This document shows, one piece after another, positions 37,324 to 48,662 of a DNA stretch of 64,000 nt. Within the stretch, counting starts at the first letter, position 1; each line of letters opens with the position of its first letter. The notes beneath the pieces were generated by a model. That model did not search any database, had not been told where the DNA came from, and worked only from the letters and a program-made list of their open reading frames with translations. Both the position numbers and the translations under genes were made by a program. Origin of the DNA: Candidatus Scalindua japonica (GTDB lineage: Bacteria > Planctomycetota > Brocadiia > Brocadiales > Scalinduaceae); NCBI RefSeq assembly GCF_002443295.1, contig NZ_BAOS01000028.1, forward strand, positions 248,001 to 312,000. The letters are read 5' to 3'.

Positions 37324-40125
37324 CTATGTATCCATAATAACAGGTCTTTTAAAATCATTTATCTCTTTCCTGCACAGTTCTACAGTGTTGGGGTGGCAGG
37401 TGAACATTACGATCTGGTTCTCTTTTGATACCTCGTTCAATAACCGGATAGTTGTTTTTGCCCTCTGAGGGTCGAAGTTTACAAGGATATCATCAACTAT
37501 CAGAGGCAGAGTCCCCACTCTACCGGCGTACTCCTTTATAAAGGCCAATCTCATTGAAAGGTAAAGCTGTTCCGCCGTTCCTCTGCTGAGTGCAGATACG
37601 TTTTTTTGCAGACCTTCCGGTGTTTCGACTACCAGGTTGTTGCCGTCAGCTTTCCTGATTATGCGAATATATCGTCTCCTCGTAATCTTATTTAGATAGC
37701 GTCCCGCGTGCTTAAGGACAAATGGCTGCCGTTCTCTTTCATAAATAGTCATTGCCCTTTTTAATAATGTATGACACAGTGCATTTACAGACCATTCTGA
37801 AAGGGCTTCCCTTAGCCTTGCCTTGAGGTTCTCTTCTTCCAGCCTCAGCTCTCCCAGTCTTTCATTTTTTTCCAGTTCAGAAATTTGATTTGTCTTTGCT
37901 CCCATCTCCTGCATGATGTCAGAAAATTCCAGTTCCTGTTGGGTTATCTCTTTCTGCAGTCTGTCTATAGATTGGTCAGTTATTACAGGATCAGATTCAG
38001 AGGCAACTTCTTTCTTAAATTTTTCAACTTCAGGTGTGCTGCCAATCAATCTTGCGAGTTGTATTTCAAGGATGTTCTTTCGCTCCCGTAATTTCTCTCT
38101 TTTGTGCACAATATTTGAGTGTTTCCTGAATTCTCCTACATTTCCAGCGCAGCCTTCGAGTATCAGATTTTCAATCTTCTTTTCTATTTCAGTAATGATA
38201 TCACGGGTTGTCTTTTCCCGGACTTTAAGTCCCTCTGTGTGTTCTTCAAGCTGCCCCTTCTTTTCCTTAAGTCTCTTCTGTTCTTTTAATGTATTGTTTA
38301 ATAAGTGGACTGATTGAGTAATGTTGTCGGGCGATGCGGTTTTCAGGTTACACTGTTTTAAGATTGTATTGATACGGTCAAGGTATTTGTGGGCCCTCTT
38401 GTTGACCTGTTGCAGCTCGTTTTCCGCCTCTTCTTTTTTTCTTATCAGTTCCTTGATCCTCCTGACAGATTCAATAAGCGCGAAGATTCCGTTCCTGTCC
38501 AGTTCGATGCTAAATCCACGGTTTCTAAGCCAATCCTGCCATTTAGCAACTGTTTGCTGATATTCATCCTTTGCTCCAGAAAGAGCTATCTCTGCTTTCT
38601 CGATAGATTGTTTCTTCGACTCCATAATATTCGACAGTTGCTCTTTTGATTCTTCTAGTGTGACTGCTGCTGATTTATAGTAAACATAATAGAGGGCGGC
38701 AATGGCTGTGATTCCCAAAACCGCAGCCATGATCCCGGAAATTGGTTTAAAGGTTATCCAGCAGAATGCTCCCAGTCCTAATGCTATTGGAATTCCAAAG
38801 ATCAGTATAAACTTGAATTGTGTTGCCGGTCTGACCCTCTCCAGTTGACGAGAGAATGTTTCAAATTCTCTAGTGGATTCGTCTCTGTTTTTTTTCTCCT
38901 GGACAAGGTTGTTTGCCGATTTCTCAACACTCATTTGGCTATTTGAAATTCCTTCAGACAAAACCCTTATGTTCTGAAGAGTTTCGTTACCTACATCTAT
39001 TGCTGTCACCCTATCTTCATTCCAATCTGTGCCTATGTCAGTGATTGCGTTTTCTACTTCCGTTTTAAGTGAGTTTGTGTTTGATATGATTCGATCTTTT
39101 CTTTTTATGTTTTCTGCTTCGGCTGAGTAATCTTCGACCAGAGAGCTAATCATGGATTCAGACTCTAAAATTTTATTGTCTATATGTATTGAATCTGCCT
39201 GAGTACTGAGCTTTTTAATCTCATTGTTCTGTTGCTGTAGTTCTTCTCTTCTTTCTGTTAATTTGTCTTCCAGCTTCTCCAGCCTTTCGGCTCCATCCAG
39301 AGGGAATTTTTCGACTACAAACGGTAAAGTGGCAGTCTGTTTTTCTATCTCTTTGAGTTCCTTGACATTGTCTCTGCCAGTCTTCAGTCTTGACGCTTTC
39401 TCTTTTTCTCTTCTTTTGTTATCAATAATATTGGATAGATTTGTCTGTTCTTTTCTCAGTTTCTCAATTTTCGAGATTGTCGTTTTATATCTTTCCAGAT
39501 CTTTTTTAATATCTGATATTTCAGCCCGGACTCTTTCAAGTTCTTTTGTAATTCTGGGTACTATTTGAGCGGCTCCGCCATGCTTGTATATCTTGTTTTT
39601 CTGTGCATTAACACTCTTTAGTATATCCGGCAGGGTAACATCTCCGATTCCTGTGCCTGCTGAATAAATATGCGCGTTTATCTCTTCATTTTCTAATGAA
39701 TCTAATTGCTGCAGTTCCGTCAGGCTGAAGGCAAATACATTCTTGTATATACTCTCGCTGACACCATGCAGAGCTGCTTGTAAACTCTTCCTTGCGCTTT
39801 CACCTGACAATTCAGTACCGTCTCCATTGAGGATATTTATTTCACCGGCAAGTGTCCTGCCGGGTTTTATAGATACAGAGAACCTCTTTTTATCTGTTGT
39901 CTCCAGTTCCAGTCTTCCTCCATGGGTTCCGCCTGCCAGAGGTTCGTAGCGGTCAGAGGCATTCTTCTTTCCAGGAAACCCAAAGAACACTGTCCTTAGA
40001 AATGACATCATCGTTGTCTTTCCTGCCTCATTGGGACCAAATATGAGGTTAAATCCCGGTGCAAAAGAAAAGTCCAGGTTATGAAACTTTCCGTATCCGT
40101 CAATGTATACTCTTATGAATTTCAT
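37324..40125 (-). CDS. yhaN: YhaN-like AAA ATPase (SbcC/Rad50-related)
   Basis: This 933-residue SMC-like protein has Walker A G-P-N-E-A-G-K-T-T near residue 31, long coiled coils, a central hydrophobic stretch (about residues 435-485), and a C-terminal ABC signature L-S-R-G-T-A-E-Q with Walker B L-I-V-D-D-I-L. The central hydrophobic region and overall length match Bacillus YhaN rather than SbcC. Its start codon overlaps the stop of the nuclease gene by one base (TAATG). Together the two genes should form a Mre11-Rad50-like complex that processes DNA ends. Confidence 0.88.
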   Translation of the reverse strand: MKFIRVYIDGYGKFHNLDFSFAPGFNLIFGPNEAGKTTMMSFLRTVFFGFPGKKNASDRYEPLAGGTHGGRLELETTDKKRFSVSIKPGRTLAGEINILNGDGTELSGESARKSLQAALHGVSESIYKNVFAFSLTELQQLDSLENEEINAHIYSAGTGIGDVTLPDILKSVNAQKNKIYKHGGAAQIVPRITKELERVRAEISDIKKDLERYKTTISKIEKLRKEQTNLSNIIDNKRREKEKASRLKTGRDNVKELKEIEKQTATLPFVVEKFPLDGAERLEKLEDKLTERREELQQQNNEIKKLSTQADSIHIDNKILESESMISSLVEDYSAEAENIKRKDRIISNTNSLKTEVENAITDIGTDWNEDRVTAIDVGNETLQNIRVLSEGISNSQMSVEKSANNLVQEKKNRDESTREFETFSRQLERVRPATQFKFILIFGIPIALGLGAFCWITFKPISGIMAAVLGITAIAALYYVYYKSAAVTLEESKEQLSNIMESKKQSIEKAEIALSGAKDEYQQTVAKWQDWLRNRGFSIELDRNGIFALIESVRRIKELIRKKEEAENELQQVNKRAHKYLDRINTILKQCNLKTASPDNITQSVHLLNNTLKEQKRLKEKKGQLEEHTEGLKVREKTTRDIITEIEKKIENLILEGCAGNVGEFRKHSNIVHKREKLRERKNILEIQLARLIGSTPEVEKFKKEVASESDPVITDQSIDRLQKEITQQELEFSDIMQEMGAKTNQISELEKNERLGELRLEEENLKARLREALSEWSVNALCHTLLKRAMTIYERERQPFVLKHAGRYLNKITRRRYIRIIRKADGNNLVVETPEGLQKNVSALSRGTAEQLYLSMRLAFIKEYAGRVGTLPLIVDDILVNFDPQRAKTTIRLLNEVSKENQIVMFTCHPNTVELCRKEINDFKRPVIMDT

Positions 40126-41393
40126 TAGCTCGACTTATCTCCCGATAACAGATCAATGCCCAGATTTACCGAATCTTCCAGGATAGTTAACAGCTCATTT
40201 TCATCAATCTCTTCAAGATATTTTCTTATAGTCCTGTTTGATAATGGCTGATTAAGTATCTTAAGTAACTCGTTCTTCATTTGATCATCATTTTCTACTT
40301 TCCCGGCAAGTCTCAGGAAATCACCAATAAAATTTTCCTGATTAATATAATCCTTCTTTTGCCTCTCAGGCCTGATTTTTAATCGTATTGATTCTGGAAA
40401 GATAAAGGGGGCCTGGTTAAAAAAACGTGCAACCAGTATCTCTTTTGTCTCTTCTATCTTATCTGTCATGGTTAATTCGTGATAAAGTGGTGATGGCCCG
40501 GTAAGTCTCCATCTCACAACAATCCCTTTTTCATCATTATTAAGTTTTGAAAGTTCTTCCTCACATTTGTCCAACAATAGCTCTGTCAACTCAACTGTTG
40601 TCATAATATCCTTTATATTCATCTCTTCCTGTTTCCACAGAATATTGTGAACAGGTTTGAATTCATATGATATTTTACGGTTTGAATCTATCTTTATAAT
40701 ATAACAACCTCTTGGTCCATCTTCGTTTATGTGTCTGCCCTGAATATTTCCGGGATAGAGTATAAGAGGGTCTTTGCAAAGGACCTCAGTTGTGTGGATG
40801 TGGCCGAGTAACCATATGTCCATGTTGTTTTCCTTCAGATCATTTAATGAACAGGGAGCATAAGGGGCATGGCCTTTTCTTGAACCAACGTTTGCATGGA
40901 GCAGACCAATAGAAACAGTATCTTTTTCCTTGGCTTGAAGTTTCAGTGAGAGGTTTTCTGTCACTTCACTTACCTTGTAACTGGTCCCATATATTCTAGT
41001 AATCACCTTACCATTCTTTTCGATTGGGATACTTTCAACTTTATCGCCACCAAGGAGGTGTACGTTGTTCGGGTATTTTATTTCTGTCAACCAGTCTGGC
41101 ATGGGGTCGTGATTACCTGCTACGATGATAACGGGAATGTCAGCTTTATACAGTCTCTCAAACTGATCTCTCAGAAGGATTTGCGCGCTCAGACTCCTGT
41201 CCGCTCCGTCAAAAGTATCACCGCCAATAGTAAGGAAATCAACTTTCTCTGCCAGGCACAGGTCTATAATTTTAACGAACGCTTCATTAGTGGAATGTTT
41301 GAACCTGTCTGCCAGAGAGGGTTCTTTTGTGGTCAGTCCCTGAAAAGGGCTGTCCAGGTGCAGGTCGGCACAGTGTATGAGTTTAATTTTCAT
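40125..41393 (-). CDS. yhaO: YhaO-like metallophosphoesterase nuclease (SbcD/Mre11-related)
   Basis: The 422-residue reading starts M-K-I-K-L-I-H-C-A-D-L-H-L-D. The metallophosphatase motifs are all present: D-L-H, G-G-D-T-F-D-G, A-G-N-H-D-P, L-L-H-A-N and G-H-I-H-T. It pairs with the downstream ATPase through a TAATG overlap. A longer in-frame start at 41474 adds 27 unlike residues and is less likely. Confidence 0.9.
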   Translation of the reverse strand: MKIKLIHCADLHLDSPFQGLTTKEPSLADRFKHSTNEAFVKIIDLCLAEKVDFLTIGGDTFDGADRSLSAQILLRDQFERLYKADIPVIIVAGNHDPMPDWLTEIKYPNNVHLLGGDKVESIPIEKNGKVITRIYGTSYKVSEVTENLSLKLQAKEKDTVSIGLLHANVGSRKGHAPYAPCSLNDLKENNMDIWLLGHIHTTEVLCKDPLILYPGNIQGRHINEDGPRGCYIIKIDSNRKISYEFKPVHNILWKQEEMNIKDIMTTVELTELLLDKCEEELSKLNNDEKGIVVRWRLTGPSPLYHELTMTDKIEETKEILVARFFNQAPFIFPESIRLKIRPERQKKDYINQENFIGDFLRLAGKVENDDQMKNELLKILNQPLSNRTIRKYLEEIDENELLTILEDSVNLGIDLLSGDKSS

Positions 41394-41587
41394 TATTAGA
41401 CAGGATGACGGATGGTCGGAAATAAAGAAATATATCTTTCTGTAACAACATTGTCTTTTTTGTTTAACGAACAAACTATATCAGAAAGAAATATGCTTGT
41501 CTAGTTTAGCTATTAAGAAAGCAGTTTGAACATAATGGATAAGTTGTTAGTTATAGACGCTATTTAAATACTCGCAGATTTTTTCTA

Positions 41588-41671: not shown

Positions 41672-41754
41672 ATGAATGTCATTGGGAAAAAAATTCTTAC
41701 AGGGTTTAGTGCTCATCATGCAGATGTTAGGGGACAATTAAGTTCTTGGCTTAA
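41672..41754 (+). pseudogene. higB: 5' fragment of HigB-type toxin gene
   Basis: The frame from ATG 41672 encodes M-N-V-I-G-K-K-I-L-T-G-F-S-A-H-H-A-D and continues to W-L, where the insertion sequence enters. Joined at the CTTAA duplication to 43866 onward, it gives an uninterrupted 94-residue HigB-like mRNA interferase. No clear ribosome site is visible. Confidence 0.85.
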
Positions 41755-41786
41755 CACAGATTTTCATACAGATTTAATACCCTAAT
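41755..41786. repeat. Left 32-bp terminal inverted repeat
   Basis: Begins CACAGATTTTC and ends CCTAAT. It is the exact reverse complement of 43834-43865. Confidence 0.95.
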
Positions 41787-41812
41787 TTTATGATGTTGTC
41801 CATAGACGGTAT

Positions 41813-43534
41813 TTAATTTTTCTTTTTTCCAGCCAAGGGATTTTTATATTTCTTGATAGCTTCCATTAAAATTTGAAGATGCCTTTTCTTTTTCATCTCC
41901 ACTATTATGGAATCGTTCTCAATTTTGAATTGACCTCCATTGTCAAAAAACTTACTGCTTAAACTTCCTGATGTTTCATTCTCAAACCCAGCAAGATCCA
42001 TAGCAATTACGCGGTAGAAATTATGTGCCGCTATAGTCATCGTTAAATCAAAATCCACCTTTACCACTATGGACGATGAGAGTTTGTTAAGGTGAAAAAA
42101 CTCTATTTGCTCTGAAATTCCTTTTTCTACATTCCAACGTTTTCCATATTGTCTGATTATTTGTGAGGCAGTACGCTTTCTATCATTGGTTAAGATAAAT
42201 GCCTCTTTTTCATGACCATTGCCTGACACGGCAATTTGCCTGAAATATCTTGTTGTTTTGTTGAGCAGTATTTCTGATTCATGAATCTTTAATCTCATAT
42301 GCTTACGGCTTGGACCTTCGACTTTGGTACTACTCCACTCCTCATCCGGTATTTTATGTAATTCTGCCAAAAGCTTTTTGCTTCTTCTGCGAAGGGTAAT
42401 AAATTTTATCTTATCCTTATCAAGTTTTTCTAAATTTTCGTAGGTTGTAAATTTAGAATCAAAAATCAAACAAGACGGTTTCCTGCCTCCGTCTTTCCAA
42501 AAATCAACAAACTCCAACACGCACTCTGCTTCATTACGATGCCTTATCTCCGCATTAGAGTAACAAAAGATGCCGGTATCCGGATCTTGGCAAAGTACGG
42601 ATAAAACGCTCTTTAGTCTTTTGCCATATTTTCCTGACCAATTATTTTCCAGAACACTGGCGTCACCCCAATGAGGAATAGCAGTAAAGTCCATGTTCAC
42701 TTGACTGCTTAACAGCCTCAATTTTTTTAGTTGTTCAAACATAGCTTTTAAAAATCTTCGGTTCATGTGACGATCCGTTCGATACGAATAGCTGGATAAT
42801 GTTCCATCTTTAGGTAACACATTAAGACCGCTGAAAAGCCCAAATCCTCTGTCCATAGCCCACAGGTCGTCTTGGCTATAACGATTATGACCAGCAAGCT
42901 TCAGGGCAATAAAAGACAACACGTTTTGAACACTGGAGAGTTCAGAAGTTCCAGGATACTCCGCAAACTCAATCCACTGATCAACACATAGTCGTGCTAA
43001 AAGCGGAAGAAAGGGAAGAATACCTATTCCTCTTTCAGAATGAAATAACTGACCTTTATCAATGTTCCAGTCAATAGAATGGCTTCGCGGAGCTTTAATT
43101 ATTTTGGAGAATTGGAGTTTTCTCTCAATTTGTGTCCGCTTGGGTAAACGAGCAAATCCTTCTGCTGAGAGTACGCGATCAATATAATCATGGGAAACTC
43201 TGTTTCCTTCTGCCTGAAGAGCACTTTTTATATCAAGTATGGAATAATTTTGTTTACGCAATCGAATTATTTTAACCTTCAATTGTGCTTTATCTGCATC
43301 CGGATTTCGTCCGGGATTTTTTGTTACAAAGAAATGCCTGGAATCAATTTGGTTATTTTTTATAGCATTTACAAAATCCCGTTTCATCGCATTGATACTA
43401 AAAGGCGAATAGCCGAATCTTTTTGCAACATCCTTTGCCTTGATCTTTTCAACACACAAAGCTCTCATTGCTTCGTATTTCCTGTGAGTTATATGAGTAG
43501 AATTTAAAAAGAACTCCTTTATGTCCTTATTCAT
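41813..43534 (-). CDS. IS transposase
   Basis: The product is about 573 residues, starting M-N-K-D-I-K-E-F; an upstream in-frame start at 43582 adds 16 residues. The N-terminal region has a helix-turn-helix of resolvase/homeodomain type (V-A-K-R-F-G-Y-S-P-F-S-I-N-A-M-K). The central and C-terminal parts carry candidate DDE residues in V-N-M-D-F-T-A-I-P and C-L-I-F-D-S-K-F, and an R-Q-Y-G-K-R-W-N-V-E-K segment like the IS4-superfamily Y-(2)-R-(3)-E signature. The frame is intact, so the element may be mobile. Confidence 0.85.
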   Translation of the reverse strand: MNKDIKEFFLNSTHITHRKYEAMRALCVEKIKAKDVAKRFGYSPFSINAMKRDFVNAIKNNQIDSRHFFVTKNPGRNPDADKAQLKVKIIRLRKQNYSILDIKSALQAEGNRVSHDYIDRVLSAEGFARLPKRTQIERKLQFSKIIKAPRSHSIDWNIDKGQLFHSERGIGILPFLPLLARLCVDQWIEFAEYPGTSELSSVQNVLSFIALKLAGHNRYSQDDLWAMDRGFGLFSGLNVLPKDGTLSSYSYRTDRHMNRRFLKAMFEQLKKLRLLSSQVNMDFTAIPHWGDASVLENNWSGKYGKRLKSVLSVLCQDPDTGIFCYSNAEIRHRNEAECVLEFVDFWKDGGRKPSCLIFDSKFTTYENLEKLDKDKIKFITLRRRSKKLLAELHKIPDEEWSSTKVEGPSRKHMRLKIHESEILLNKTTRYFRQIAVSGNGHEKEAFILTNDRKRTASQIIRQYGKRWNVEKGISEQIEFFHLNKLSSSIVVKVDFDLTMTIAAHNFYRVIAMDLAGFENETSGSLSSKFFDNGGQFKIENDSIIVEMKKKRHLQILMEAIKKYKNPLAGKKKN

Positions 43535-43833
43535 ATAATTAGTATACATTGTATGAATAATAAGTAAATATAATAAAGTCATTCTTGCATATTTTCAATG
43601 ACTGCCGGTATGCTACTTCTTGACTTAGCGGTATTTATAGCGCTTCAACCGTATTTTCAAATACGTCATGACAAATTACTTCCTGCTTTAAGTTCAGTAA
43701 TTGCAACCTACTATTCAGGCATTAATACCTAATTTGAATTATATTTAAAATTCAACCTACTTGTGTGTCTTGTGGATTTGATAGGCTTATAAGGCATTTT
43801 AGCTTTCTGCATGAACCAGAATTGAGTTATAAT

Positions 43834-43865
43834 ATTAGGGTATTAAATCTGTATGAAAATCTGTG
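43834..43865. repeat. Right 32-bp terminal inverted repeat
   Basis: Exact reverse complement of 41755-41786. Immediately followed by CTTAA, the right copy of the target duplication. Confidence 0.95.
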
Positions 43866-44072
43866 CTTAATGAAGCAGAAGAAGCAGATTGGAAGTGTTC
43901 TCAAGATATAAAACAAAGGTATGCAAGTGCCAGTTTTTTAGCCGACAATATTGTTGTGTTTAACATTAAAGGTAATGACTACCGGATTGTTGCAAAAATT
44001 AATTATCCAAGCAAGAGTGTCCTAATTAAAAGGATAGGTACACATTCCGAATATTCGAAATGGAGATTATAA
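43866..44072 (+). pseudogene. higB: 3' fragment of HigB-type toxin gene
   Basis: This encodes L-N-E-A-E-E-A-D-W-K through V-V-F-N-I-K-G-N-D-Y-R and G-T-H-S-E-Y, the hallmark core and tail of HigB toxins. A GTG inside the IS end (43863) opens the same frame, so a truncated 69-residue product lacking the first helix could still be made. It ends 12 bp before higA. Confidence 0.9.
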
Positions 44073-44084
44073 GGAGAAAACTCC

Positions 44085-45290
44085 ATGATTAAAATAATAA
44101 AATCACAAAAAGACTATAATGAGGCATTAAAAAATGTCGAATTTTTAATGGATCGTAACCCAAAGGTGGGGTCATCCGATGCAAATAAACTTGAATTGCT
44201 AATATTACTTATTAAGGATTATGAAGACAAGCGTTTTCCTATGCAAGCACCTGATCCAATAGAAGCAATATTATTTAGAATGGAACAGGAGGGATTACAG
44301 CCTAGAGATTTAATTCCTTATATAGGCAGTCGTAGTAAAGTCTCGGAAATTTTGTCAAAAAAACGCCCACTTACTCTTACAATGATTAGGGCATTGCATG
44401 AAAGTCTGGGAATACCTATAAAGTCTTTAATAAAAGAAGATAAACCCAAATTATTCAAGTCAGACGAAATTGATTGGAACTGCTTTCCTGTTAGAGAAAT
44501 TATTAACCGTGGGTGGGTAAAGTCAAGGTTTAGTGATATTAAGGCACATTCTAAAGATATAATTTTAGAATTTTTACAACCTTTAGATTCAGAAAATCTG
44601 GTACCTGCTCTTTACAGAATGACAGAAAATGTTCGTTCCGCAAGAAAGATAGATAGAGGTTCTTTAATGATGTGGAATGCACGAGTGATAATACTTGCTA
44701 ATGAGTATAGAAATTCGAAAAAATATAAGAAAGGTAGCGTTTCTAAGGAGTTTATAAAAAATGTAATACAATTAAGTAAATATGATGATGGCCCACAGAA
44801 AGCAAGGGCGTTTCTTATGGAAAATGCTATTCCGTTAGTAATTGAACCTCACTTGCCTAGAACTCATTTAGATGGAGCGGCAATTATGACTGAACAGGGG
44901 CCTGTAATTGGTCTAACCATTAGATACGATAGATTAGATAATTTTTGGTTTAACCTTGCTCATGAATTATCACATATTTCTTTGCATCTGGATAAATATA
45001 ATATGGGATTTTACGATTATAATTTGGAAACTGATTCAGATGATCCTATGGAGAAAGAAGCAGATGGATTTGCTTCTGAATGTCTAATTCCTGAAGTAAA
45101 GTGGGAAAATAGTCCTGCTTCAAATTTGAAAACACCAGGTGCTGCAATCCATTTAGCAAAAGAATTAAATATTCATCCGGCAATTGTTGCAGGAAAAATG
45201 AGACATTATTTTAGAAATTATCGAATTCTAAATCAATTAATAGGCAATAAACAAGCAAGGATTTGTTTTTCAGAAATTAATTGGAGTTAA
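44085..45290 (+). CDS. higA: HigA antitoxin fused to ImmA/IrrE-type zinc peptidase
   Basis: This 401-residue protein is much longer than HigA alone (about 100-140). Residues 1-120 match HigA: D-P-I-E-A-I-L-F-R-M-E-Q-E-G-L and an XRE-type helix-turn-helix I-G-S-R-S-K-V-S-E-I-L-S. The C-terminal part carries the zinc motif H293-E-L-S-H297 and a downstream E-K-E-A-D-G-F-A-S-E, the layout of ImmA/IrrE peptidases that cleave repressors. An AAGGAG ribosome site precedes the ATG. The fusion suggests an antitoxin whose repression can be switched by proteolysis. It is still intact although its toxin gene is broken. Confidence 0.9.
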   Translation: MIKIIKSQKDYNEALKNVEFLMDRNPKVGSSDANKLELLILLIKDYEDKRFPMQAPDPIEAILFRMEQEGLQPRDLIPYIGSRSKVSEILSKKRPLTLTMIRALHESLGIPIKSLIKEDKPKLFKSDEIDWNCFPVREIINRGWVKSRFSDIKAHSKDIILEFLQPLDSENLVPALYRMTENVRSARKIDRGSLMMWNARVIILANEYRNSKKYKKGSVSKEFIKNVIQLSKYDDGPQKARAFLMENAIPLVIEPHLPRTHLDGAAIMTEQGPVIGLTIRYDRLDNFWFNLAHELSHISLHLDKYNMGFYDYNLETDSDDPMEKEADGFASECLIPEVKWENSPASNLKTPGAAIHLAKELNIHPAIVAGKMRHYFRNYRILNQLIGNKQARICFSEINWS

Positions 45291-45292
45291 AT

Positions 45293-46360
45293 ATGTTTGA
45301 TTATAAACATTATGTTCCGGTATTACGTTGGAAACAATCAGAGTGGCTTGCATTAAGAGAGTTAACTGATGTGCAGAGAAAAGAAATTACACCATTAATT
45401 GAAATAGTTCCAGTTAAATTTGTGGATAAGGAAACTAAAGAAATTAAGAAGGAGAATTGCATTAAAGAAGAGTTAAATAAAATAGTAAATGGAATAAGAA
45501 AGAATTGGGGGGAGGCTAGAGCTTTTATAGATGTTCATCTTCTAGATGTAACAATAAGAACCTTTGTTATGAAGGAAATCATTGTAGCTGGAAATAATTT
45601 GAACTTGCATCTTATTCCAGTGATTCATTTAAATTACTCAAAAGAGTACCTAGATATGGTTTCAAATTTACCAAATAAGAATCAAGGTGGGGCATGTCTA
45701 AGGTTGAATATAGAAGAAGTGTCAGATGTTAGCTTGATTGATAAAGTGGAAATATTAATTGATATTGTAGGGATAAAGCACCACAATATAGATTTGATTG
45801 TGGATTATAAGTTAATAAATGAAAGCCAACCAAAATTTAATTATTTAATTCAAATCATTCCTAGTTTAAGAGAGTGGAGGACTCTAACGGTGATCAGAGG
45901 GGCATTTCCTAAAGATCTTTCTGGTTTTGAACTAGGAGAACATCTTCATCCAAGGCAAGATTGGCAATGTTGGTTAAAAGAAGTAGCGTCTAGTTCTCTT
46001 TTAGATCGACTTCCGGCTTTTGGGGATTATACAATCCAATATCCTATTTATTCAGAACCACCAGAAAGGGCGAATGTCAGTGCCAGTATTAGGTATGCTT
46101 CTGATAGTGCTTGGGTAATTATGCGGGGAGAGGGGCTGTTTCATGATAATAGTCCTGGTCACGCTCAGTATCCTGCAAATGCATTATTACTATCCGTTAG
46201 AGACGAGTTTTGTGGGGAGAAATTTAGTTTTGGAGATAAATATATTTATGAAATGGGACAGCAAAATAAAAAATATGGCAATCCAATGTCTTGGTTAAAG
46301 GCGGGTATTAATCATCATATCACTCTCGTTATTTACCAACTCTCCAATCTGTCCGATTGA
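45293..46360 (+). CDS. Beta-family (sce7725-like) protein
   Basis: This 355-residue protein starts M-F-D-Y-K-H-Y-V-P-V-L-R-W-K-Q-S-E-W, the typical opening of the phage T4 Beta-protein family. Internal segments such as P-L-I-E-I-V-P-V and the W-x-A-Y-P-A-N-A-like H-A-Q-Y-P-A-N-A support this. The biochemical function is unknown. The ATG lies 2 bp after the higA stop, with GGAG in the higA end, so it is in the same operon. Its last 32 bp overlap the end of the convergent sce7726-like gene. Confidence 0.8.
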   Translation: MFDYKHYVPVLRWKQSEWLALRELTDVQRKEITPLIEIVPVKFVDKETKEIKKENCIKEELNKIVNGIRKNWGEARAFIDVHLLDVTIRTFVMKEIIVAGNNLNLHLIPVIHLNYSKEYLDMVSNLPNKNQGGACLRLNIEEVSDVSLIDKVEILIDIVGIKHHNIDLIVDYKLINESQPKFNYLIQIIPSLREWRTLTVIRGAFPKDLSGFELGEHLHPRQDWQCWLKEVASSSLLDRLPAFGDYTIQYPIYSEPPERANVSASIRYASDSAWVIMRGEGLFHDNSPGHAQYPANALLLSVRDEFCGEKFSFGDKYIYEMGQQNKKYGNPMSWLKAGINHHITLVIYQLSNLSD

Positions 46361-46901
46361 TAAGTCTCTCTCTTACTCTGTTTTGTATTGTTTCAATGTC
46401 TGCGACGTCAATTAGCATATTGTAAATTGAATTCCTAGTTTTAGATCGGAGCCCTTTTTTTAATCCAAATTCTTCGAGAAGGACTATGGCTTCTTCTTTC
46501 CAAAGCAATTTAGCCAAAAGCAGTTTGTCTTGTGAAAGATTTTTCTTTTCACGACGAACAGTAAGAAATCTGACTTCATCATTTGTTTTCTTTTCCGCAA
46601 TTTTAACTCCCCACCATTCTGGAACAGTTTTTATAGCCTTAAAAGCATGACGATATCCAACAATTAGAGTAATCTTATCAAAAACCTTACTATAAGTGTC
46701 TGCTTGATGTGGAAGTCTTTTTAAGTTGTCTTTATCACTTTTAAACTCAAAACCATGTAAGCAGCCATTGACAACGGCAAGATCAATCCTTGTGGAACCA
46801 TGTCCCAAACCTAATTCCTCAATGATCACTGTATTTTTTGATTTTGAGAATTTTTTCAATAAAATGTTCCTTAGAGTCTTTCTGATATGTATATCATTCA
46901 T
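46329..46901 (-). CDS. sce7726-like PD-(D/E)XK nuclease-fold protein
   Basis: The product is about 190 residues (199 from the upstream start at 46928). The PD-(D/E)XK signature is readable as D49 in S-T-R-I-D-L-A-V-V and E61-F-K63 in G-F-E-F-K-S-D, counted from the upstream start, followed by Q-A-D-T-Y as a helper motif. Relatives of this family are often encoded next to Beta-family proteins in accessory regions. Here the pair is tail to tail, with the two genes overlapping by 32 bp. Nuclease activity is likely but not shown. Confidence 0.8.
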   Translation of the reverse strand: MNDIHIRKTLRNILLKKFSKSKNTVIIEELGLGHGSTRIDLAVVNGCLHGFEFKSDKDNLKRLPHQADTYSKVFDKITLIVGYRHAFKAIKTVPEWWGVKIAEKKTNDEVRFLTVRREKKNLSQDKLLLAKLLWKEEAIVLLEEFGLKKGLRSKTRNSIYNMLIDVADIETIQNRVRERLINRTDWRVGK

Positions 46902-47032
46902 AATTTTTATTTTTAAGTTGGTAGGCATTGATTTAAATAGCTAGTCAGTGTGGAGAATAAAACAAAACACCATAAAATATCAACTATTTTTTTCAAATTT
47001 TATTCCAATTGCTTTCCACAAAAGATGAAGGA

Positions 47033-48601
47033 TTATGCTTTATCTGGGCTTATCAAATTATTACTAGTCATTTCTACGGGTTTTTCTATGTCTAGCAGGT
47101 ATAGGATCGTAGGAGCTATATCTGAGAGAGTGCCTTTTTCAATTAGTTTTATATTTTGGTGGTCTTCGGCAACGTAGATGAATTCTACAGGGTTTGTAGT
47201 GTGTGATGTCTTTGGTATGCCAGTTTTGTAGTCTATCATCTCTTCCGCGTTTCCGTGGTCTGCTGTTATCAGGGCTATTTTGTTCTTTGATAAAATAGTT
47301 TCAACGAGTTTTCCTACACATTCGTCTACCACCTCTACTGCTTTCGTTGCTGCGTCATAGTTGCCGGTATGACCCACCATATCACAGTTTGCCAGGTTAA
47401 TGATCATAAGGCTGAATTCGTTTGAATTTATTCTCTTAACAGCCTCATTTGTGACTTCATAGGCATTCATTTCAGGGTGATCGGCGAATGTGGCAGGGTC
47501 GAAAGTTCCTTTGATCTCTATCTGTTCTTCTCCTGGAAATGGTTTAGTACGTTTACCGTTAACAAAAGATGTTACATGGCTGTATTTCTGGGTCTCAGAA
47601 ATGCGTATCTGCTTCAATCCTTTTTGGCTAAGAATTTGACTGAGCAGATTGTCCATCTCTCCGCTGTCATCCATCGGTTCCAGAATATTATAGGGGAATG
47701 TGTCGTAATACCTTGTGAGACCACAGTAGACAATGTCGAATTTTTTCCACCTTTCGCCTGGATAATCATCTTCTACAAATGCTTTTGTTAATTGGGTAGC
47801 CCTGTCCTGTCTGTAGTTGAAGTGTATGATAGAGTCTCCATCTTTTACCCCTTTATAATCTCCAATTATCAGAGGCGGAATATATTCATCAAACATGTCC
47901 TTGCCATTTGGAGTTTTTGTTTTGTAAATTTCCTGTATCGTATCTTCCAGATTTTCCACACTCTCTACTTTTTCTCCCTGTCCTTTTGTGATTGCATCGT
48001 ATGCGGTTGTTGTGAGTCTCCACTCTCTGCCTCGGTCCATAGCGTAGTATCTTCCCATAAATGTGGAGATTTTGCCGATACCGTACTCTTTTATCTTTTC
48101 TTTCAGGGTGCGGATATAGCCTATGGTGCTTTTTGGGGGGGTATCTCTTCCGTCCGCGAAGAAATGGATGTATAGCCTTATAATGCCTTGCTGCTTCGCG
48201 TATTTCATAATTGCGAAGAGATGGTCCTGGTGCGCATGTACACCTTCATCCTGTACGAGGCCCATCAGGTGGAGTGACGAATTATTCTCAAGAACGTTCT
48301 TGATGGCCTTCCGCAAGATAGCACTTTTAAAGAAAGAGCCGTCCTTAATATTGTTTGTTATCTTGGTAATTTCCTGTTCAACAACTCTTCCTGCGCCAAT
48401 ATTAAGGTGTCCTACTTCGGAAGAACCCTGATAGCCTTCCGGAAGACCCACTGCGGTGCCTGACGCATCAAGTATAGTATTTGGATATTTTTGCAGAAGA
48501 GAGTCTGTATTTGGTGTATGCGCATTTGCTACAGCGTTATGGTCATGGTCCGGGTTTATGCCCCAGCCATCTCTGATTATCAGTACAATTGATTTATTCA
48601 T
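47033..48601 (-). CDS. gpmI: 2,3-bisphosphoglycerate-independent phosphoglycerate mutase
   Basis: GpmI interconverts 3- and 2-phosphoglycerate in glycolysis and gluconeogenesis using two Mn ions. The 522-residue reading starts M-N-K-S-I-V-L-I-I-R-D-G-W-G. The catalytic serine sits in G-S-S-E-V-G-H-L-N-I-G-A-G, and D-G-R-D-T-P-P, H-F-N-Y-R-Q-D-R and T-A-D-H-G-N-A-E-E are intact. Length is normal. A longer start at 48622 is less likely. Confidence 0.95.
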   Translation of the reverse strand: MNKSIVLIIRDGWGINPDHDHNAVANAHTPNTDSLLQKYPNTILDASGTAVGLPEGYQGSSEVGHLNIGAGRVVEQEITKITNNIKDGSFFKSAILRKAIKNVLENNSSLHLMGLVQDEGVHAHQDHLFAIMKYAKQQGIIRLYIHFFADGRDTPPKSTIGYIRTLKEKIKEYGIGKISTFMGRYYAMDRGREWRLTTTAYDAITKGQGEKVESVENLEDTIQEIYKTKTPNGKDMFDEYIPPLIIGDYKGVKDGDSIIHFNYRQDRATQLTKAFVEDDYPGERWKKFDIVYCGLTRYYDTFPYNILEPMDDSGEMDNLLSQILSQKGLKQIRISETQKYSHVTSFVNGKRTKPFPGEEQIEIKGTFDPATFADHPEMNAYEVTNEAVKRINSNEFSLMIINLANCDMVGHTGNYDAATKAVEVVDECVGKLVETILSKNKIALITADHGNAEEMIDYKTGIPKTSHTTNPVEFIYVAEDHQNIKLIEKGTLSDIAPTILYLLDIEKPVEMTSNNLISPDKA

Positions 48602-48662
48602 AATTTTATTTAATATGGACAATGTTTATTAAATGATGCGAAGCGTGCTATGGCTGATGTAA

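Follow-up and report, generated by a model that had tools for sequence, protein, structure and literature searches.

Do the accessory genes that interrupt a run of core genes in Candidatus Scalindua japonica form a single anti-phage system, and if so, is that system new? The genes lie in a 64,000-nucleotide stretch of contig NZ_BAOS01000028.1 (the window), from which an earlier note, made from the sequence alone, proposed a defense-type cassette of HigB, a HigA-ImmA/IrrE fusion, a Beta-family protein and an sce7726-like nuclease between core genes. The four accessory genes and their core neighbors were borne out: an island composed of an IS and the four genes is flanked by sbcD (40125-41474, - strand) and gpmI/iPGM (47033-48622, - strand). 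Two known systems are relevant to their annotation. PD-lambda-2 was found by functional selection in E. coli and provides anti-phage activity by abortive infection (Vassallo 2022, PMC9519451), and gop-beta-cII of satellite phage P4 confers protection against lambda and P1 (Rousset 2022, PMC9122126). The features of the island are:

41672-41754, + strand: 5' piece of higB, 27 codons (41672-41752), corresponding to PADLOC PD-Lambda-2_A model positions 1-27 and ended by the IS
41755-43865, no strand assigned: IS with 37-nt inverted repeats, a 5-bp duplication and a DDE transposase (41813-43582, - strand)
43863-44072, + strand: 3' piece of higB, PD-lambda-2 component A (Pfam HigB_toxin, PADLOC PD-Lambda-2_A)
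44085-45290, + strand: HigA-ImmA/IrrE fusion, 401 aa, PD-lambda-2 component B (PADLOC, Pfam, HigA structures)
45293-46360, + strand, ATG at 45293: Beta protein, PD-lambda-2 component C / P4 beta family (Pfam, PADLOC, structure model)
46329-46928, - strand: sce7726-family PD-(D/E)XK protein, 199 aa, P4 CII relative (NCBIfam, PADLOC, structure model)

The Beta ATG lies 2 bp beyond the stop codon of the fusion gene, and the 3' ends of the convergent Beta and sce7726 genes overlap by 32 bp. This gap and overlap, the gene coordinates, the HELSH motif at residues 293-297 of the fusion and D49, E61 and K63 of the sce7726 protein had all been reported in the earlier note and were correct when we reread the sequence.

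The toxin gene required a different description. Its assignment to the HigB family was correct; however, the gene lies upstream of position 44085, at which the cassette had been thought to start, and is split by the IS rather than merely degraded. Searched separately, the two pieces corresponded to positions 1-27 and 28-93 of one PADLOC HigB model, ruling out a short or degraded open reading frame. The right piece matched Pfam HigB_toxin (1.4e-25) and PADLOC PD-Lambda-2_A (PDLC03981, 1.3e-29, model positions 28-93). The inverted repeats of the IS span 41755-41791 and 43829-43865, and a 5-bp target duplication, cttaa, can be read from the sequence on both sides of the element (41750-41754 and 43866-43870). 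A ~99% identical copy is present on contig C1 of the same genome and a partial copy on C21. The near-identical copies, together with three downstream genes that are still open, suggest that the insertion was recent. Because the IS splits higB and separates the remaining genes from the upstream region, the toxin arm is probably inactive in this genome, either silenced or uncoupled. Promoter-like sites in the IS end were not more common than in shuffled sequences.

The cassette sits in a conserved gpmI-sbcD junction. In six same-genus genomes (G001, G002, G004, G006, G009 and G010), the two core genes are adjacent with a spacing of about 75-270 bp, which represents the empty site and indicates that the ~5.5 kb at this junction is an insertion. 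We found no repeats longer than 9-11 nt flanking the ends of the island and no tRNA at the island, and Rfam returned no match.

The proteins downstream of higB all had clear profile matches. The fusion protein matched PADLOC PD-Lambda-2_B (PDLC03982) at 3.1e-142 over residues 2-397, compared to weak matches to the RmrA and CapP models (1.9e-8 and 7.9e-10). Its HigA half matched the E. coli HigA structures 5ycl and 5ifg in profile comparisons (E ~1e-9), and its C-terminal part is an M78 zinc peptidase (Pfam Peptidase_M78, 2.6e-9). The peptidase motif, H293-E-L-S-H297 (HEXXH), is intact, and all 89 of the dereplicated relatives retain both HEXXH and E323. In a separate observation, the N-terminal 109 residues of the fusion (44085-44411) showed 68% identity to a short HigA-like ORF that stands alone at locus L108 (G021:C30:40500-40826), in a genome of the same order. 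Among the full-length fusions found, none exceeded 49%, and a domain exchange with an ordinary HigBA is a possible origin of the N-terminus.

The Beta protein matched Pfam Beta_protein (1.9e-57), PADLOC PD-Lambda-2_C (PDLC03983, 6.2e-43, residues 6-354) and the P4 beta model (8.1e-7). Its predicted structure (pLDDT 90, pTM 0.91) is a TIM barrel: structural alignment returned TIM barrels at Z 11.5-13.5, including a de novo TIM barrel at Z 13.5 and many enzymes near Z 12. All 53 of the sequences compared share P9, E17, D80, D171, D245 and H342, and 52 have R221. Judging from the list of predicted strands, D80 and D245 would end strands and R221 would directly follow one, as expected of a barrel active site. 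The top Foldseek row was UV-damage-endonuclease-like (E 4.8e-4); we dropped this assignment because many unrelated TIM barrels lead the second structural alignment, in whose lists the absence of a family does not amount to its exclusion.

The convergent gene encodes a protein that matched NCBIfam sce7726 (2.5e-49) and the PADLOC 'cll' model for P4 cII (3.8e-29). Among 45 dereplicated relatives, D49 is conserved in 43 of 43 aligned sequences, E61 in 44 of 44 and K63 in 45 of 45, while E38 and S64 are present in all aligned members. The structural model (pLDDT 90) aligned with restriction-endonuclease-like folds (3dnx, Z 10.1; PaqCI, Z 8.3; Can2, Z 8.0). Foldseek gave no match below 0.001 with this model, and support for the fold therefore comes from the second structural aligner and the motif. 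The protein displays the E...D...ExK signature of the PD-(D/E)XK superfamily on a restriction-endonuclease-like core.

Matches to all three PD-Lambda-2 models and to the P4 cII model support the proposal of an accessory defense-type cassette. An ordinary addiction or stabilization toxin-antitoxin locus, lacking anti-phage function and now decaying, would be consistent with a higB broken by an IS, with flanking genes that, as far as we examined them, form no recognizable defense island or prophage, and with the absence of the four-gene set from the gpmI-sbcD site in same-genus genomes. However, relatives of both halves of the cassette have validated anti-phage activity (PMC9519451, PMC9122126), addiction would require neither a dedicated nuclease nor a TIM-barrel protein whose polar residues are invariant, and viral contigs carry the Beta/sce7726 pair, as described below. 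We judge an addiction locus to be highly improbable.

If the four genes belong together, the combination should be found in other genomes, and the earlier note had staked its proposal on such recurrence. We scanned an alignment of fusion proteins against one genome per species and analyzed the 80 best loci. HigB was present at 77 of these loci in other genomes, and a Beta gene lay directly downstream of HigA-ImmA at 16. A convergent, overlapping sce7726 gene was found at 10 of the 16 Beta-bearing loci compared to none of the 64 Beta-less loci (Fisher 5e-9, relatedness ignored). The ten loci are labeled as Acidobacteriota, Bacteroidota, Omnitrophota, one unclassified bacterium and several candidate-phyla-radiation groups (Komeilibacteria, WWE3, Falkowbacteria, Levybacteria, Parcubacteria and Patescibacteria), and since most of them are metagenome bins, individual taxon labels may be wrong. 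At one of the ten (L036), which is located at a contig edge, no higB was detected. In addition, the complete and intact set, higB included, occurs at a different locus (L201:3647-6812) in a same-genus genome (G003), and L026 and L028 also have naturally intact cassettes. The association of the fusion with the Beta/sce7726 pair thus recurs at 10 of 80 independent loci and in a same-genus genome, ruling out a four-gene combination private to this genome.

At loci with HigB-HigA-ImmA but without Beta, other defense-type genes often occupied the third position (L049, L064, L073 and L082, directly downstream of HigA-ImmA; also L078, L079, L030, L057 and L088). They included genes for type I restriction R-like proteins of ~1005 aa, which start 4-13 bp downstream at L049, L064 and L073, as well as HsdM, GmrSD, AbiEi, RadC and an AAA ATPase. 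The HigB-HigA-ImmA pair may be a general guard module.

The distribution of sce7726 bears on whether the cassette is simply PD-lambda-2, with HigB, HigA-ImmA and Beta doing all of the work and sce7726 as a separately acting neighbor. In support of this explanation, the three-gene E. coli system is sufficient as published (PMC9519451), neither PD-lambda-2 loci of E. coli nor their close relatives (L074, L083 and L100-L103) carry sce7726, and the gene is on the opposite strand. By contrast, sce7726 is present at 12 of 15 loci in the window's HigA-ImmA lineage, the remainder being broken or without it, and the convergent overlap has been retained. The gene is otherwise rare, scoring over the cut-off in 5 of 294 genomes of the window's phylum, and Beta adjoins it in all five. 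Furthermore, Beta and sce7726 are paired in phages that have no HigA-ImmA. Taken with these data, it is quite doubtful that the cassette is PD-lambda-2 and nothing else.

Phylogenetic analysis separated the cassettes into two groups. In a tree of Beta proteins, the window sequence joined the Betas from other HigBA-ImmA cassettes (13 rows, 100/99 support), and those of E. coli-type PD-lambda-2 formed a separate group (5 rows, 100/100). A quick tree of the fusion proteins recovered the same two lineages with support of 99 each, and sce7726 is found in one of them only. By these sequence comparisons, the sce7726-bearing and E. coli-type lineages are subtypes. In an AU test, one common clade for all Beta-bearing fusions was not rejected (p 0.70), and constraining them to it gave a better likelihood. 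Accordingly, we do not claim a double origin of the Beta association.

Beta and sce7726 are a near-obligate convergent pair. Scanning an sce7726 alignment against viral contigs yielded 80 loci, and Beta was present at 77 of them, always convergent. Over all loci we found 101 convergent pairs, many near-copies among them, of which 98 have a 3' overlap. In phages, the majority of pairs show neither a conserved gene upstream of Beta nor an adjoining toxin module, and so the two halves of the cassette may act separately. On plasmids, comparison of positions indicated that an HTH-ImmA gene precedes 13 of 20 Beta genes in the same record (three with an insertion between). DUF6932 occupies the toxin position at the one rhizobial plasmid locus that was read in detail.

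These findings raise the prospect of two independent modules at one locus with no common mechanism, HigBA-ImmA serving as toxin-antitoxin and Beta/CII as nuclease. HigB-HigA-ImmA without Beta at 64 of the 80 loci and Beta/sce7726 alone at most phage loci would fit this arrangement, as would the occurrence of the pair with other toxin modules (gop in P4 and DUF6932-HTH/ImmA in rhizobia). However, Beta lies tight behind the fusion gene, with a 2-bp gap here and overlapping genes in relatives, and E. coli Beta (component C) is required for defense against lambda-vir by the HigBA-ImmA-Beta set (PMC9519451). Moreover, the grouping of the window Beta with Betas of other HigBA-ImmA cassettes (100/99) argues that the union has been inherited together. 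Two modules without a shared mechanism therefore seem unlikely to us.

Three further observations concern the Beta/sce7726 pair. Among the 101 loci, the 3'-3' overlap ranges from 11 to 159 nt and is almost always 2 modulo 3, corresponding to one relative reading phase; convergent overlaps have a known phase bias, which may explain part of this pattern. A stand-alone ImmA/CapP-like peptidase adjoins the phage pair at L187 and L131 and a CI-like S24 repressor at L130, a hint that the pair may also be regulated in other ways. Finally, Acinetobacter plasmids (L015, NZ_CP014478.1; H66/H76 at 78714-80145) carry a DUF6932-like/HTH-ImmA/Beta/sce7726 cassette with an interrupted Beta. In the L015 record, the 5' fragment of Beta adjoins an IS30-family element and an NDM-1 resistance segment, and the remaining Beta and sce7726 are ~10 kb further.

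Weighing the evidence, we consider it probable that the island was acquired horizontally and is an anti-phage cassette in which a PD-lambda-2 core and Beta are joined to a convergent CII-type nuclease gene. In our model for this cassette, HigB and HigA-ImmA would constitute a guarded pair, and phage infection would disturb the guard. Beta, an enzyme-like TIM barrel, would sense or produce the trigger, and the metallopeptidase would alter the state of the HigA part and so reset or release the guard, resulting in growth arrest or death. The sce7726/CII nuclease and Beta would act as the DNA-cutting effector. We know of no phage-resistance assay of any four-gene cassette. In PD-lambda-2, component B (HigA-peptidase) is toxic when overexpressed and is rescued by component A (HigB-like) (PMC9519451). 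By analogy, the toxin and antitoxin roles of HigB and the HigA-peptidase may be reversed relative to the earlier note, in which the peptidase domain was suggested as a possible sensor of damage or phage that releases the toxin and the nuclease pair.

A broader idea, which we consider somewhat less likely than not, is that Beta, a TIM-barrel protein whose invariant residues include acidic ones and a histidine, and the PD-(D/E)XK nuclease sce7726/CII are one conserved two-protein effector that is found alone in phages and is plugged into interchangeable guards (HigB/HigA-ImmA, DUF6932/HTH-ImmA or Gop). If this is true, PD-lambda-2 and gop-beta-cII would be one modular defense family. As it stands, these two systems, found by different groups, have a module in common, and an intermediate form that combines the PD-lambda-2 toxin-antitoxin with beta/cII from P4 occurs widely among bacterial phyla. 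The function of Beta, so far labeled an antitoxin although it resembles a TIM-barrel enzyme, thereby becomes testable, as does the role of the CII nuclease as effector. These data also suggest that defense-system catalogs that count just three PD-lambda-2 components miss a subtype.

How does the cassette compare with systems already described? The earlier note knew of none that combines these genes. In fact, PD-lambda-2 accounts for three of the four genes (PMC9519451) and beta-cII for the Beta/sce7726 pair (PMC9122126); what stands is their union, since we found no description of the full four-gene set in the literature searched. Literature searches for sce7725/sce7726 in connection with defense gave nothing relevant. 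RosmerTA, in which an RmrA antitoxin is paired with an RmrT toxin, and the CapP/CapH-type regulators resemble the cassette in combining an HTH with an M78 peptidase (ImmA/IrrE) in the antitoxin or regulator, but matches of the RmrA models to the fusion are partial, weak and far below PD-Lambda-2_B. The rhizobial plasmid loci (L017) have the same fourfold layout, DUF6932 - HTH/ImmA - Beta - sce7726, with Beta and sce7726 convergent and overlapping. They differ in having DUF6932 (PF22014, 1e-28) instead of HigB in the toxin position, and we found no description of this set in the literature.

The resemblance to PD-lambda-2 extends to gene order and orientation: both have HigB, then a HigA-like HTH that carries a peptidase at its C-terminus, then a protein resembling P4 beta, and PADLOC models for components A, B and C all match the cassette, A as two pieces. 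Unlike PD-lambda-2, the cassette has a fourth, convergent and overlapping sce7726/CII gene. Four E. coli loci are without sce7726, indicating that some PD-lambda-2 types can do without the nuclease. In addition, the cassette Beta is only ~19-20% identical to the Beta of the PD-lambda-2-like loci L074 and L083, and higB is broken in this genome.

The second half of the cassette resembles gop-beta-cII. The PADLOC 'beta' and 'cll' models matched phage P4 at 8e-188 (P4 beta) and 3e-113 (P4 cII), and the P4 reference record names CII an sce7726 family protein. As in the cassette, P4 has its toxin gene upstream of beta on the same strand, and a convergent cII lies after beta. The toxin module here is HigB and HigA-ImmA instead, and the window locus (L105) yielded no match to gop; P4 beta and cII are separated by a short gap with a terminator rather than overlapping by 32 bp; and P4 CII has 264 aa compared to 199 here. 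The four-gene set is a real, recurring subtype that links two known defense systems. Collectively, the matches to PD-lambda-2 components A, B and C and to cII, together with the P4 layout, argue that the cassette unites the toxin-antitoxin core of PD-lambda-2 with the beta/cII pairing of P4.
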